From: an uncultured Atopobiaceae bacterium | GTDB lineage: Bacteria; Actinomycetota; Coriobacteriia; Coriobacteriales; Atopobiaceae | Reading direction: 5' to 3' | Length of the DNA stretch: 40,739 bases | Assembly: GCA_947599965.1 (NCBI GenBank) | Contig: CANQFP010000006.1 | Location: forward strand, 1-40,739 | In this document: in pieces, positions 1-5,301 of the stretch | How the letters are laid out: every line of letters begins with the position of its first letter | Numbering within the stretch: position 1 is the first letter of the stretch | Position numbers and translations under genes: made by a program | Notes under the pieces: generated by a model | Told to the model about the DNA's origin: nothing | Seen by the model: the letters and a program-made list of their open reading frames with translations, nothing else | Database searches by the model: none

Positions 1-79
1 TGATGCTTCTCGTTCGACTTGCATGTGTTAAGCGCGCCGCCAGCGTTCATCCTGAGCCAGGATCGAACTCTCCGTTCAA
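1..79 (-). rRNA. rrs: 16S ribosomal RNA, 5' end only (partial)
   Basis: Read on the minus strand, positions 70 down to 51 match the universal 27F site at the start of 16S rRNA (GAGTTCGATCCTGGCTCAGG), followed by the usual GATGAACGCTGGCGGC and a CACATGCAAGTCGAACG stretch. Aligning with E. coli numbering puts nucleotide 1 near position 78-79. Only about 80 nt are inside the window; the rest lies beyond the left edge. The GTTCGATC variant and the GGATGAACGCTGGCGGCG string are typical of Actinobacteria including Coriobacteriia. The first variable region is cut off, so genus cannot be assigned. Confidence 0.97.
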
Positions 80-580: not shown

Positions 581-1978
581 CTAGCGCTCGGCGACCTTGG
601 CCACGATCTCCTCGGCCGCGTCGAGCAGGCGGTCGCGCTCCTTGCGCGTGGGAGCCTCGGCGAAGATGCGCACGAGGGGCTCGGATTCCGAGGTGCGCAC
701 GAGAAACCAGGATTCGTCTGCGAAGTGCATCTCGAGGCCCATGGCATGGCTCATCGAGACGGGCTTCCTGCCGAGGACGGAGCCGGGGTTCACGCCGGGC
801 AACAGGTTCTTGAGCATCTGCTTCATGGCCACGTCGACGGGCACGGTGCGCAGGGCGTAGGCCGTGGTACCGAGGGTGCGGTCGAGCTCGCTCACGAGGG
901 CGGAGAGCGGCTTTCCCGCCTGCGCCATGAGCTCGAGGACGCAGAGCGCCACCACGAAGGCGTCGCGGCTCTCCCCGAAGGCGGGCACCGTGAGGCCGCC
1001 GAGGACGTCGGTCGTGGAGAGGACGCCGCCGGTGTTCACCTCGTCGCGCGCCCAGGCGCGATCGTCCCCCACGCGCACGATCTCGAGGCCGAGGCGCTTG
1101 GCCTGCCGCGCGGGCACGACCGAGGCCGTCCGCGGCACCACCACGCGGCCCGTGAGGCCGCGATGCTCCACGAGATGCGCCATCACGAGGGCGTGCACCT
1201 TGGGCGAGGGCACGAGCCTGCCGGCCTCGTCGATGACGGCGAGGCGGTTCGAGGGGCCGTCGAAGACGAGGCCCACCTCGGCGTCGCCTGTCGCCACCAC
1301 GCGCTCGGCCTCGTCCACCCAGGGCTCGACCGCCGCCGGGTGGAGGCCGCCGAAGTCGTCGAGGAGGGCGCCGTGGATCTCGCGGGCGCGAAGCCCCCAG
1401 CCGACCAACAGCGAACGCGCCGTGGTGCGGGCCGTGCCGAAGAGCGGATCGACGAGGCAGCTCGCCCGCCGCTTCGCGAGCGGGGCGAGATCGAAGGATT
1501 CGCGCAGATGCACGAGGTAGGAGCCCGTGAGGTCGGCGAGCCCGAAGGAGGCCGCGCTGTCGGGCACGGAGCGCGGCGCCATGCGCTCGATGAGGGCCGC
1601 TTCCTCGGCGCCCATGGCGTGACCGCGCCCATCGCGCACGCGAATGCCGAGGTAGCTCGCCGAACGGTGGTCGGCGCCGACCATGAAGCCGCCCGCTGCC
1701 TCGTCGTCTTCGGCGAGGGCGTGGTTGAGCGCCGGCATGGGCGAGGGCGCCTCGGCGAGCGTGACCTCGAAACCCTCGGCCGCCGTGAGGCCGGCCACGG
1801 CGCGGGCGATCTCATCCGAGCCCGCGCGGGTGTCGAAGGCCACGTAGGCCCTGGTGCCCCGATCGTCGTGTTTCCAGAGCTCGGCCACGGCCCAGGCGAT
1901 GCGCAGGGCGACGTCCTTCGCCTCGTCGAGGGACTTCCTCGAATACCAGCCGTCGTTGGTGAAGCGGATGTAGGCCAT
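581..1978 (-). CDS. Alpha-D-phosphohexomutase-like protein with degenerate catalytic loops
   Basis: A 465-residue protein with the domain order of the phosphoglucomutase/phosphomannomutase superfamily: an N-terminal RFTNDGW motif (5-11), a VAFDTR strand (46-51), and a C-terminal phosphate-binding loop RTSESEPLVRIF close to the family RPSGTEPxxR. The residues needed for chemistry are missing. The phosphoserine loop (family TASHNP) reads GADHRS at 101-106, with Asp103 in place of the Ser. The magnesium loop (family DGDADR) reads DGPSNR at 240-245. No GEESG sugar loop is visible. The chosen ATG follows directly after galU (35 nt) and begins the recognisable domain. Position beside galU suggests a link to hexose-1-phosphate or UDP-sugar metabolism, but as written it looks like a pseudoenzyme that may bind a sugar phosphate. 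A working mutase with unusual loops cannot be excluded. Confidence 0.8.
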   Translation of the reverse strand: MAYIRFTNDGWYSRKSLDEAKDVALRIAWAVAELWKHDDRGTRAYVAFDTRAGSDEIARAVAGLTAAEGFEVTLAEAPSPMPALNHALAEDDEAAGGFMVGADHRSASYLGIRVRDGRGHAMGAEEAALIERMAPRSVPDSAASFGLADLTGSYLVHLRESFDLAPLAKRRASCLVDPLFGTARTTARSLLVGWGLRAREIHGALLDDFGGLHPAAVEPWVDEAERVVATGDAEVGLVFDGPSNRLAVIDEAGRLVPSPKVHALVMAHLVEHRGLTGRVVVPRTASVVPARQAKRLGLEIVRVGDDRAWARDEVNTGGVLSTTDVLGGLTVPAFGESRDAFVVALCVLELMAQAGKPLSALVSELDRTLGTTAYALRTVPVDVAMKQMLKNLLPGVNPGSVLGRKPVSMSHAMGLEMHFADESWFLVRTSESEPLVRIFAEAPTRKERDRLLDAAEEIVAKVAER

Positions 1979-2012: not shown

Positions 2013-2900
2013 TTAGGGGATGAGCTGCGCGTCGTCGCCGAGCTCCTCGAAGAACGCCTCGAGGGAGCCCTCGTCGTGGAGGGCCATGCGGGCGTTGGCC
2101 GCGGCCCACGTGGCGGGCGTGCCGGTGTCGAGGCCGTCGCGGCCGTCGACGACGAGCGCGAACATCTCCTCCTCGGCGAGCAGGCGCACGAGGGCGTCGG
2201 TGAGTTGGATCTCGCCGCCCGCTCCCGTGCCCTGATCGGCGAGGAGCCCCATGACGCGCGGGGAGAGCAGGTAGCGCCCGACGATGGCGAGGTGCGTGGG
2301 GGCGACTTCGGGCGCGGGCTTCTCCACGAGCCCCGAGAGCTTGAGCACGGCGCCCGGCGCATCGGGGTCTGCGCCCTCGACGAGATCGCCGGCCACGATG
2401 CCCCAGCGTCCGGTCGTGGAGGGATCCACCGGCGCCACGCAGATGACGGAGGCGCCGCCGTGGGCCGCCGAGACGGCCGCCATCGCGGGGCTCATGCCGT
2501 GGGCCGGCACGACGTAGTCGCCGAGGAGCACGAAGAAGGGCTCCTCGCCCACCTCGCTCGCGGCCTGGAGCACGGCGTGGCCGAGGCCGAGCGGCTCATC
2601 CTGGTAGACGAAGGCCACGGGAAGCTCGCCCGCCTCGCGCACCTTCTCGGCGAGCGCCCCCTTGCCGTGCTCCTCGAGGAAGCCCTCGAGCTTCGGCGCG
2701 GGCGAGAAGTAGGCCTCGAGCATGGGCTTCTCGTGGGAGTTCACGATGATGGCGGCGTCCACGCCCTCGACGTCGAGGGCCTCCTCCACCACGTGCTGGA
2801 TGACGGGCTTGGAGAGCAGCGGCAACAGCTCCTTGGGCACGCCCTTCGTCGCGGGGAGGAACCGGGTGCCCAGACCCGCCGCCGGAATGATCGCCTTCAT
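2013..2900 (-). CDS. galU: UTP--glucose-1-phosphate uridylyltransferase
   Basis: A 295-residue nucleotidyltransferase that makes UDP-glucose from UTP and glucose-1-phosphate for cell-envelope glycans and galactose metabolism. The start MKAIIPAAGLGTRFLPATK is the family nucleotide-binding signature, followed by PKELLP, VIQHVVEEA, the acidic GDYVV motif, GRWGIV and GLVEKP segments typical of bacterial GalU. Length matches the family. The frame is open further upstream, but the ATG at 2900 sits behind a GAGAGG site and starts the conserved sequence exactly. It is followed on the same strand by the phosphohexomutase-like gene after 34 nt, so the two are probably cotranscribed. Confidence 0.95.
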   Translation of the reverse strand: MKAIIPAAGLGTRFLPATKGVPKELLPLLSKPVIQHVVEEALDVEGVDAAIIVNSHEKPMLEAYFSPAPKLEGFLEEHGKGALAEKVREAGELPVAFVYQDEPLGLGHAVLQAASEVGEEPFFVLLGDYVVPAHGMSPAMAAVSAAHGGASVICVAPVDPSTTGRWGIVAGDLVEGADPDAPGAVLKLSGLVEKPAPEVAPTHLAIVGRYLLSPRVMGLLADQGTGAGGEIQLTDALVRLLAEEEMFALVVDGRDGLDTGTPATWAAANARMALHDEGSLEAFFEELGDDAQLIP

Positions 2901-2960: not shown

Positions 2961-3476
2961 TCACTCGTGCACGCTCGCACCATGGACGCTATCGTCCGTG
3001 AAATCCTTCACCACCATGCCCTGACCCTCGAGGTGACGGGTCCAGCGGCGCATGGTCTCGGCCGACAGCGCGTGCTCCATGAGGCACGCCTCGGCGTCGG
3101 CCGTCGGCGGCTCCACGCCCAGCTCGTCTTCGAGGAAGGTCCGGAGCATCCGGTGGCACTTCCAGAGGAGCTCGGCGTAGGCGCGCCCCTGCTCGGTGAG
3201 GCCAACCCGCCCGTAGCGATGCTGCTCCACGTAGCCTTTGTCCTTGAGGGTCGCGAGCGCCTTGTTCACGCTCGCCTTCGAGACGTCGAGGAGCTCCGCC
3301 ACCGCGACCGAGCGCACGGCCTCGGCGCCGTCCTCCTCGAGCATGATTCGCCAGATGGCCTCGAGGTAGTCCTCGTTGGCCATGCTGAGGCTGTGGAGCT
3401 CGCCCCATGGAGCCACGGTGGGCTCCGGATCTGCTCGGACGTCGTTTTCGGCGCCCCGTTCCCTCGGCTGCGTCAT
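2961..3476 (-). CDS. DtxR/MntR-family metal-dependent transcriptional regulator
   Basis: 171 residues: an unusual 32-residue leader, a winged helix-turn-helix (about 33-96, NEDYLEAIWRI to GLTEQG) and the metal-binding dimerisation domain (97-155). There is no C-terminal SH3 domain, as in Bacillus MntR. Candidate metal ligands by alignment with MntR are Asp36, Glu39, His108, Cys131, Glu134 and His135. Asp36 matches the manganese regulator MntR, while Cys131 matches Cys102 of the iron regulators DtxR/IdeR, where MntR has Glu. It probably represses manganese or iron uptake genes in metal-replete cells. No transporter is nearby. The start at 3476 is chosen because AGGAGG lies 5 nt ahead; an ATG at 3383 would give the minimal family length. 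Confidence 0.88.
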   Translation of the reverse strand: MTQPRERGAENDVRADPEPTVAPWGELHSLSMANEDYLEAIWRIMLEEDGAEAVRSVAVAELLDVSKASVNKALATLKDKGYVEQHRYGRVGLTEQGRAYAELLWKCHRMLRTFLEDELGVEPPTADAEACLMEHALSAETMRRWTRHLEGQGMVVKDFTDDSVHGASVHE

Positions 3477-3499
3477 GTCTCCTCCTCGCGGCACGGCCC

Positions 3500-4759
3500 C
3501 TAGGCCGAAAGAAGGCTCACCTCGGCGCCCAGGCTCTGCAGCTTGGGCACGAAGTTCTCGTAGCCCCGTTCGATGTGGTGGATGTCGGAGACGGTGGTGT
3601 AGCCGTCGGCCACGAGCCCGGCCAGGACGAGCGCCGCACCACCGCGCAGATCGGGGGCCGTGACCGGCGCCCCGGAGAGGGCGGGCACGCCGTGGACGAT
3701 GGCGTGGTGGCCCTCGATGGTGATGTCCGCCCCCATGCGTGCGAGCTCGGCCGCGAGCATGAAGCGGCTCTCGAAGATGTTTTCGGTGACCACGCAGGTG
3801 CCGCCGGCCACGGAGAGGAGCACCATGGTCTGGGCCTGCATGTCGGTGGGAAAGCCCGGGAAGGGCAGAGTCTGGATGTCGAGGGAGCGGATCTGCCCAT
3901 CGCGGCGGATGGTCACGCGGCGCTCGCCGCGCTCGACGCCCATGCCCATGGCCTCGTATTTGCGGAGCACCATCTCCAGGTGCACCGGCTCGAAGCCCTC
4001 GACGGTCACGGGGCCGCCGGCGAGCGCGCCCGCGGCGAGGAACGTGCCCGCCTCGATGCGATCGCCCACCACCTCGTGCTCCACGGGATGCAACTCGGAG
4101 ACGCCGTGGACGACGATGGTGGGGCTGCCCGCGCCCTCGATCTCGGCACCCATCTCGGCGAGCATCTCGGCGAGGTCGCAGATCTCCGGCTCGCGCGCGG
4201 CGTTCTCGATGGTCGTATCGCCCTCGGCGAGGACGGCCGCCATGAGGAGGTTCTCCGTGGCGCCCACGCTCGCGAACTCGAGCGGCACGACGGTGCCACG
4301 CAGGCGATCGGGCACGTGCGCCTTGATGTCGCCGTGGTCGACGCTGAACTCCACGCCGAGCGCCGTGAGCCCGGCGAGATGCATGTCGATCTTGCGGGCG
4401 CCGATGTTGCAGCCGCCCGGCATGGCCACCCGAGCCTCGCCGAAGCGCGCGATGAGCGGCCCGAGCACGGCCGTGGAGGCGCGCATCTGGGCCACGAGCT
4501 CATAGGGGGTGACCCACGAGGCCACGGGTGCGGTGTCGATCACGAGGGTGTGCTCGTCCTCGACGTCGATGGTGGCGCCGAGGCGCTTCAGGACCTTGCC
4601 CATCACGTGGACGTCGGAGATGTTGGGGACGTTCGTGAGCCGCGAGACGCCCGGCGCCATGAGCGTCGCCGCCATGAGCTTCAAGGCTGAGTTCTTGGCG
4701 CCCTCGACCTTGACCGTGCCGGCCAAGGGCCTGCCGCCGACGACTCGGATCGCCTCCAC
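3500..4759 (-). CDS. murA: UDP-N-acetylglucosamine 1-carboxyvinyltransferase
   Basis: 419 residues; transfers enolpyruvate from PEP to UDP-GlcNAc, the first committed step of peptidoglycan synthesis in the cytoplasm. Visible family marks are the N-terminal VEGAKNSAL (substrate Lys-Asn pair), the loop GGCNIGARKIDMH carrying the catalytic Cys that fosfomycin attacks, and the C-terminal RGGAALVLAGL segment. Keeping Cys rather than Asp in the loop predicts fosfomycin sensitivity at the target. It starts with GTG at 4759, with GAGGAGG six nt upstream; the longer open frame upstream has no conserved sequence. The metal regulator follows 23 nt downstream. murA here follows the ATP synthase operon with 116 nt between. 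Confidence 0.96.
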   Translation of the reverse strand: MEAIRVVGGRPLAGTVKVEGAKNSALKLMAATLMAPGVSRLTNVPNISDVHVMGKVLKRLGATIDVEDEHTLVIDTAPVASWVTPYELVAQMRASTAVLGPLIARFGEARVAMPGGCNIGARKIDMHLAGLTALGVEFSVDHGDIKAHVPDRLRGTVVPLEFASVGATENLLMAAVLAEGDTTIENAAREPEICDLAEMLAEMGAEIEGAGSPTIVVHGVSELHPVEHEVVGDRIEAGTFLAAGALAGGPVTVEGFEPVHLEMVLRKYEAMGMGVERGERRVTIRRDGQIRSLDIQTLPFPGFPTDMQAQTMVLLSVAGGTCVVTENIFESRFMLAAELARMGADITIEGHHAIVHGVPALSGAPVTAPDLRGGAALVLAGLVADGYTTVSDIHHIERGYENFVPKLQSLGAEVSLLSA

Positions 4760-4875
4760 GCCCCCTCCTCGTTCGCGCGCCGCCGCGGAGCCCGAACGCC
4801 CCGCATCGGGCACCCATTCTAGTTGAGACGCTGTGGAGCTCGCGTGATGAGGGCGCAGCCGCGCCGGCGCGAGCC

Positions 4876-5301
4876 CTAGGAGTTGTACTGCTCGTTCACC
4901 TTCAGGAGCAGATCGCACCAGCGGATCTTGCTCTCGTAGTAGGAGCGGCCGGGGTCGTCGGCCGCGAGTTCCTCGAGGGCGTCCTCGGCGTCGTCCTTCG
5001 TATCCTCCACCACGTCGGGGTCGATGTCGTTCACCCGGCGCGCGTGGTCGGCCAGCACGATGACGTGCTCGTCGGTGATGCCCGCGTAGCCGCCGGAGAT
5101 GACGATCCGCGTGAGCGTCTCGCCATCCTCGTCGGGCACGTGGTTGATGCGCATGACGCCCTCGCCGAGCGCGCAGATCTCGGGCGCGTGATGGGGCAGG
5201 ACGCCGAGCTCGCCGGTGCGGGTGAGGAGCGTCACCGAGAGCGCGTCGCCCTCGGAGAGGAGCTTATCGGGGCGCACGATCTGGTATTTGAAGGTATCCA
5301 A
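4876..5301 (-). CDS. atpC: F1 ATP synthase subunit epsilon
   Basis: 141 residues. The epsilon subunit is part of the rotating central stalk and can inhibit ATP hydrolysis. The N-terminal beta-sandwich is recognisable (FKYQIVRPDKLL, GELGVLPHHAPEI, ISGGYAGI), followed by an acidic helical C-terminal part (about 85-141) longer in charge than usual. The start is a TTG at 5301: an in-frame TAG lies four codons upstream and no ATG precedes the conserved sequence. An AAGGA site is only about 2 nt from the TTG, so translation may be weak. Last gene of the atp operon, 81 nt after atpD. The minus strand just past its stop can fold into a GC-rich hairpin without a U-tract. Confidence 0.94.
   Translation of the reverse strand: MDTFKYQIVRPDKLLSEGDALSVTLLTRTGELGVLPHHAPEICALGEGVMRINHVPDEDGETLTRIVISGGYAGITDEHVIVLADHARRVNDIDPDVVEDTKDDAEDALEELAADDPGRSYYESKIRWCDLLLKVNEQYNS

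Follow-up and report, generated by a model that had tools for sequence, protein, structure and literature searches.

Organization of the mutase locus

The window considered here, the whole stretch of 40,739 nucleotides from an uncultured Atopobiaceae bacterium (contig CANQFP010000006.1), carries at one end a gene for a phosphohexomutase-like protein with galU, an MntR/DtxR-type regulator gene and murA upstream of it and a 16S rRNA gene directly downstream (Table 1). The contig ends inside the 16S rRNA gene, a layout found in many Atopobiaceae genomes, and this adjoining rRNA gene is probably the reason why the mutase gene often lies at a contig end. At the structural level, Pfam recognizes the PGM_PMM domains I to III of the protein with scores that exceed the gathering threshold, which domain IV narrowly misses, and an AlphaFold2 model built on a 60-sequence alignment displays a confident, complete fold (pLDDT 93.9, pTM 0.92), with 1tuo as its best match in the PDB (TM 0.86/0.92). 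The protein thus has the four-domain, heart-shaped fold of the alpha-D-phosphohexomutases. When compared with the GlmM, Pgm and PMM/PGM equivalogs of NCBIfam, its best score was 166.8 bits, against a cut-off of 439.

Table 1. Features of the mutase locus, with positions in the window.
Feature	Position	Strand	Remarks
16S rRNA, 5' end	1..78	-	Directly downstream of the mutase gene, likewise in other Atopobiaceae genomes
Putative pseudo-phosphohexomutase, 465 aa + stop	581..1978	-	ORF, Pfam, 1tuo alignment, AlphaFold model
Loop 4, residues 428-434 RTSESEP	677..697	-	Phosphate-binding loop, partly kept
Domain IV motif, residues 393-415 LPGxNPxxVxGxxPxxxSHxxGL	734..802	-	Common to sister families, absent from the intact outgroup
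Loop 3, residues 322-328 TTDVLGG	995..1015	-	Replaces sugar-binding GGEESGG
Residue 308, Ala	1055..1057	-	Replaces Lys of GFK (loop 3B, proposed catalytic base); Lys in 42/42 intact, 0/83 Atopobiaceae copies
Loop 2, residues 240-245 DGPSNR	1244..1261	-	Replaces metal-binding DGDADR
Residue 113, Arg	1640..1642	-	Replaces invariant Lys; Lys in 42/42 intact, 1/83 Atopobiaceae copies
Loop 1, residues 101-106 GADHRS	1661..1678	-	Replaces T[AS]SHNP; Asp103 at the phosphoserine position
Loop 0, residues 6-14 FTNDGWYSR	1937..1963	-	Arg12 of FGTDGWRA replaced by Tyr
galU, UTP-glucose-1-phosphate uridylyltransferase	2013..2900	-	Intact catalytic motifs; 34 bp between its stop and the mutase start
MntR/DtxR-type regulator	2961..3494	-	Kept upstream neighbor in Atopobiaceae and f10
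murA	3500..4918	-	Kept upstream neighbor

Loss of the catalytic residues

The residues of the window protein were read against 1tuo and against 42 orthologues with intact motifs. These alignments confirmed three changes reported in a preliminary description made from the DNA alone: the TASHNP loop reads GADHRS, with Asp103 in place of the phosphoserine; DGDADR reads DGPSNR; and GEESG is missing, its place being taken by TTDVLGG. In the metal-binding loop Asp240 is kept and the two other aspartates are gone (Asp242 to Pro, Asp244 to Asn), and in the sugar-binding loop Glu324, Glu325 and Ser326 have become Asp, Val and Leu. The C-terminal phosphate loop, described as kept, is so in part: compared with RxSGTEP, Arg428, Ser430, Glu433 and Pro434 are retained, but Gly431 has changed to Glu and Thr432 to Ser. 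The losses extend further than the preliminary description had noticed, as they also include Arg12 (to Tyr), Lys113 (to Arg) and Lys308 (to Ala). Residue 12 is Arg in 41 of the 42 intact orthologues and Tyr in all ten copies of the clade to which the window belongs; in the superfamily, the loop 0 arginine and the loop 3B lysine have been proposed to act as the acid and the base, respectively (PMC7761743). Five other genomes of the same genus encode proteins with essentially the same motifs at 58-77% identity, so that the changes are due neither to chance nor to sequencing error, and local decay of the gene was ruled out on the same grounds.

Distribution of the orthologues and order of residue loss

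The family of the window (f1) was taken as Atopobiaceae, and we infer that f10 and f2 correspond to Coriobacteriaceae and Eggerthellaceae. An orthologue was found in 127 of 140 Atopobiaceae genomes (93/101 among the good ones), in 215 of the 301 genomes of the order and in 106 of the 120 of the class. From these draft genomes, 145 mutase copies were extracted with their flanks and aligned. All 42 copies outside f1, f10 and a third family, f3, hold the serine, the metal triad, Lys308 and Lys113, their other catalytic residues being essentially invariant as well, so that the same substitutions do not occur in every Coriobacteriia orthologue. In f10 the four features are together in 9 of 17 copies, some of the others being relaxed. 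Among the 83 Atopobiaceae copies, by contrast, Lys308 is never present and Lys113 appears once, the serine is found in 54 and the metal triad in 51; both of the latter coexist in 45, and 23 copies lack all four. Orthologues with intact motifs, which had been named beforehand as a possible sign of local decay, do exist, but those with every motif intact lie exclusively outside Atopobiaceae, where they mark the ancestry of the protein.

A maximum-likelihood tree places the Atopobiaceae copies in nearly one clade, with the long-branched copy of genome G006 falling outside. On this quick tree, which has some long branches and on which the counts depend, the minimum number of state changes was two for Lys113 and nine each for Ser103 and the metal triad. 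This difference indicates that Lys113 (and, within Atopobiaceae, the base lysine) was lost first, once or nearly so, and that the nucleophile and the metal site were lost later and many times, in several subclades including that of the window. Loss of the serine as the first step was ruled out, since Lys308 and Lys113 are gone across the family and the serine is still found in 54 of the 83 copies. The window clade comprises the genera g1, g3, g21 and g23, which have ADHR, DGPSNR and DxLGG in common at 42-46% identity between genera. In sister lineages, position 103 is occupied by Ser, Gly, Thr, Ala or Leu. An aspartate mimicking the phosphorylated serine, as had been suggested, would consequently not be a requirement of the family as a whole. 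Such mimicry is still conceivable: PDB entry 2fkm, one of the structure matches of the window model, shows the S108D mutant of Pseudomonas aeruginosa PMM/PGM together with glucose 1,6-bisphosphate, so that an aspartate in this position is in itself no bar to ligand binding.

Degenerate copies are also found beyond Atopobiaceae. In f10, residues of the metal site or the serine are missing from some copies, among them L193 and L195 (genus g82) and L191 (genome G171), with motifs such as TGGSRP and DGTGTR, apparently through an independent second round of degeneration. In the single f3 genome concerned (G047, locus L217), the order is mntR, galU, mutase and the mutase is degenerate (TAGHNG, GADATR); galU matches there as two pieces, probably owing to a frameshift or an assembly error.

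Selection and the domain IV motif

Pairwise Nei-Gojobori estimates over the usable Atopobiaceae pairs, in some of which dS is near saturation, gave dN/dS values of 0.03-0.33 for the mutase against 0.02-0.15 for galU, which places the mutase under purifying selection in this family. In the genus of the window the mutase value is about twice that of galU, which fits with a weaker constraint. Within the window clade the formerly catalytic loops are conserved at 0.82 versus 0.69 in the rest of the protein, a value reached by 18 of 2000 circular-shift controls.

A different behavior is displayed by the motif in domain IV. The conservation of segment 391-415 rises from 0.55 in the intact outgroup to 0.76 in f10 and 0.72 in Atopobiaceae, and that of the catalytic loops falls from 0.93 to 0.78 and 0.65, respectively. 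Gly395 and His411 of the motif are invariant (83/83 in Atopobiaceae, 17/17 in f10 and f3). The motif therefore predates the loss of catalysis and outlived it, and of all parts of the protein it is the likeliest to carry the function that would have been retained.

Linkage to galU

The proximity of the mutase to galU was already part of the preliminary description and is a property of the family: in 83 of 85 Atopobiaceae loci the gene immediately upstream, in the same orientation, is galU, and no more than 20 bp separate the two genes in 62 of 83. This arrangement makes co-transcription of the two genes likely. The full Atopobiaceae order is murA, mntR-like gene, galU and mutase, followed by the 16S rRNA gene where the contig continues; in f10, where galU is missing from the locus, it is mntR-like gene and mutase, at times preceded by murA. 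None of these neighbors was seen in the remainder of the class, except for a galU-like gene close to the mutase at two loci. In genus g17 the mutase stays and galU has moved elsewhere, and in genera g11 and g54 galU is kept and the mutase is absent. Genome G076, in which a full mutase gene was not found, has a 201-bp PGM_PMM_I match directly downstream of galU (C13:238305-238505), possibly a remnant or a very diverged copy.

The proposal that the protein is a scaffold or regulator of GalU has been weakened by these comparisons. Conservation extends over the entire murA-mntR-galU-mutase block, so that the adjacency could be simple synteny. In addition, evolutionary-rate covariation gave no GalU-specific signal for the mutase, which tracked MurA at least as well (partial correlations of 0.44 for mutase and GalU given MurA, and of 0.60 for mutase and MurA given GalU). 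From its gene context, a partnership with GalU is nonetheless plausible. It is important to remark that the curated cut-off of TIGR01099 misses the Atopobiaceae GalU, as the window protein scores 225 bits against 327 with all its catalytic motifs intact; a degenerate GalU was ruled out as an explanation on this basis.

Probable displacement by a PGM2/PgcA-type mutase

The genome of the window holds further mutases with intact motifs: a PGM2/PgcA-type enzyme on contig C44 (TASHNP, DPDADR, EES, RPSGTEP), apart from galU, and GlmM on C93. Across the 120 class genomes, the PGM2-type is present in all 20 Atopobiaceae, in most f10 and in four f2 genomes, and in none of the sampled genomes outside the order. 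Those four f2 genomes (G037, G176, G186, G192) are exactly the ones of their family without the orthologue, and each of the 12 listed f2 genomes that lack PGM2-type carries it, so that the two are mutually exclusive there. Families in which the orthologue is degenerate or relaxed have a PGM2-type enzyme. In the f2 genome G168, where GlmM and the orthologue are the only mutases, the latter presumably does the phosphoglucomutase job. This distribution fits with displacement of the orthologue by PGM2, followed by its loss in f2 or its re-use in Atopobiaceae. Two f10 genomes (G194 and G212) have two or three PGM2-type genes each.

Proposed role and alternative explanations

The best explanation of these observations, to which we assign a probability of roughly 0.6, is that the window protein is a lineage-specific pseudoenzyme, a displaced phosphoglucomutase kept for a non-catalytic and probably phosphosugar-binding role. 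The preliminary suggestion of a pseudoenzyme is in this respect strongly supported by the sequence comparisons, and the condition would be older and wider than was proposed, given the family-wide loss of Lys113 and the base lysine. Under this model, Coriobacteriia would have had an ancestral phosphoglucomutase-like enzyme whose catalysis became dispensable as soon as a PGM2/PgcA-type mutase was present in the ancestors of Atopobiaceae and Coriobacteriaceae, and which was then retained in a non-catalytic capacity. Maintenance under purifying selection despite catalytic loss suggests such a replacement and such a job. Since the arginine and serine of the phosphate loop are kept, the cleft with its rebuilt pocket may still bind a phosphosugar, with glucose 1-phosphate and glucose 1,6-bisphosphate as the probable ligands; in its closed or bound state the protein would act on a partner through domain IV. 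The likeliest partner would be the adjacent GalU, with UDP-glucose synthesis being tuned to the phosphosugar pool, although this step taken alone is less likely than not. A sensor operating throughout the family, in which the rebuilt pocket would detect either glucose 1-phosphate or glucose 1,6-bisphosphate while domain IV controls GalU (or the MntR/MurA step) so that UDP-glucose and envelope synthesis are tied to the sugar-phosphate supply, is a conceivable but rather unlikely elaboration. Residual or altered activity may persist in the roughly half of the Atopobiaceae copies that hold both serine and metal triad.

The invariance of the new pocket residues within the window clade could instead reflect a re-tooled enzyme, in which Asp103-His104 together with Arg105, Arg113, Arg283 and Asn244 would make up a new catalytic center, for example of a phosphatase or of a phosphotransferase with an Asp nucleophile, while in most other genera serine and metal triad carry out a different phosphoryl transfer. 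His104 is indeed found in 10/10 copies of the clade against 1/73 in the rest of the family, and the 45 copies with serine and metal triad would suit such a scheme. However, the clade lacks the metal triad and the proposed acid and base, and the pocket varies by subclade, with no single new active site for the whole family, all of which renders this reading improbable. Even less credit is given to a poor phosphoglucomutase with unusual residues that would still feed glucose 1-phosphate to GalU. The fold is correct, galU adjoins, and P. aeruginosa PMM/PGM kept some activity when the histidine that follows its phosphoserine was mutated, which indicates that single losses need not be fatal (PMC7761743). 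But the nucleophile, two metal ligands, proposed acid and base, Lys113 and the sugar-loop residues are all gone together in a genome with an intact PGM2-type mutase, and we regard this possibility as very remote.

A further alternative is that of a dying gene, functionless after relaxation of selection and kept by the recency of its replacement or by its position between galU and the rRNA operon. This would explain why the catalytic motifs vary widely between genera, the long terminal branches of the tree, the higher dN/dS relative to galU in the window genus, and the complete absence of the mutase in g11 and g54 together with the short match beside galU in G076. Against it, the listed Atopobiaceae matches are open and free of internal stops in 127 of 140 genomes and most genera, dN/dS is well below 1 in every usable pair, the new motifs are kept across 42-46% identity, and the two domain IV residues are invariant, so that we consider it quite improbable. 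The preferred reading of a retained pseudoenzyme has wider consequences. An old sugar-phosphate enzyme without its catalytic residues is kept in almost every species beside a gene for UDP-glucose synthesis, and labeling the protein 'phosphomannomutase/phosphoglucomutase' on the strength of a domain match would be an error across this family of gut and mucosal bacteria. Atopobiaceae moreover offer a graded series, from intact sister-group orthologues, by way of copies without the base lysine, to copies that lack the nucleophile and the metal site as well, and the PGM2-type is the likely replacement. This makes the order of events in the conversion of an enzyme into a pseudoenzyme directly testable.

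Comparison with known systems

Literature searches found no pseudo-phosphoglucomutase in Atopobiaceae or other bacteria; the documented pseudoenzyme of the superfamily is vertebrate PGM5. PGM5, or aciculin, is an alpha-D-phosphohexomutase without activity, and the herring protein still binds glucose 1-phosphate (PMC7761743, PMC5570346). Like the window protein, PGM5 preserves the whole four-domain fold, has lost its activity (a loss predicted in our case), coexists with an active paralogue and has a non-catalytic role, here proposed. Unlike it, PGM5 keeps the phosphoserine, the metal site, the acid and the base, whereas the bacterial protein has lost most catalytic residues, lies beside galU and arose in place, not as a recent duplicate of an active enzyme. 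The closest solved relative of both the intact class orthologue (E 2e-99) and the window model is 1tuo, a putative phosphomannomutase from Thermus; mutases of this kind differ in having every catalytic loop intact and possibly belong to the cd05800 glucose-1,6-bisphosphate synthase family of Slr1334 (PMC9426568). The PGM2/PgcA-type enzyme on C44 is of the same superfamily, with its motifs intact and its gene on a contig apart from galU, and probably took over the reaction. A precedent is provided by GalF (TIGR01105, 'GalU regulator GalF'), a proposed modulator of GalU, with the difference that GalF is a paralogue of GalU itself and the window protein is a homologue of the mutases.
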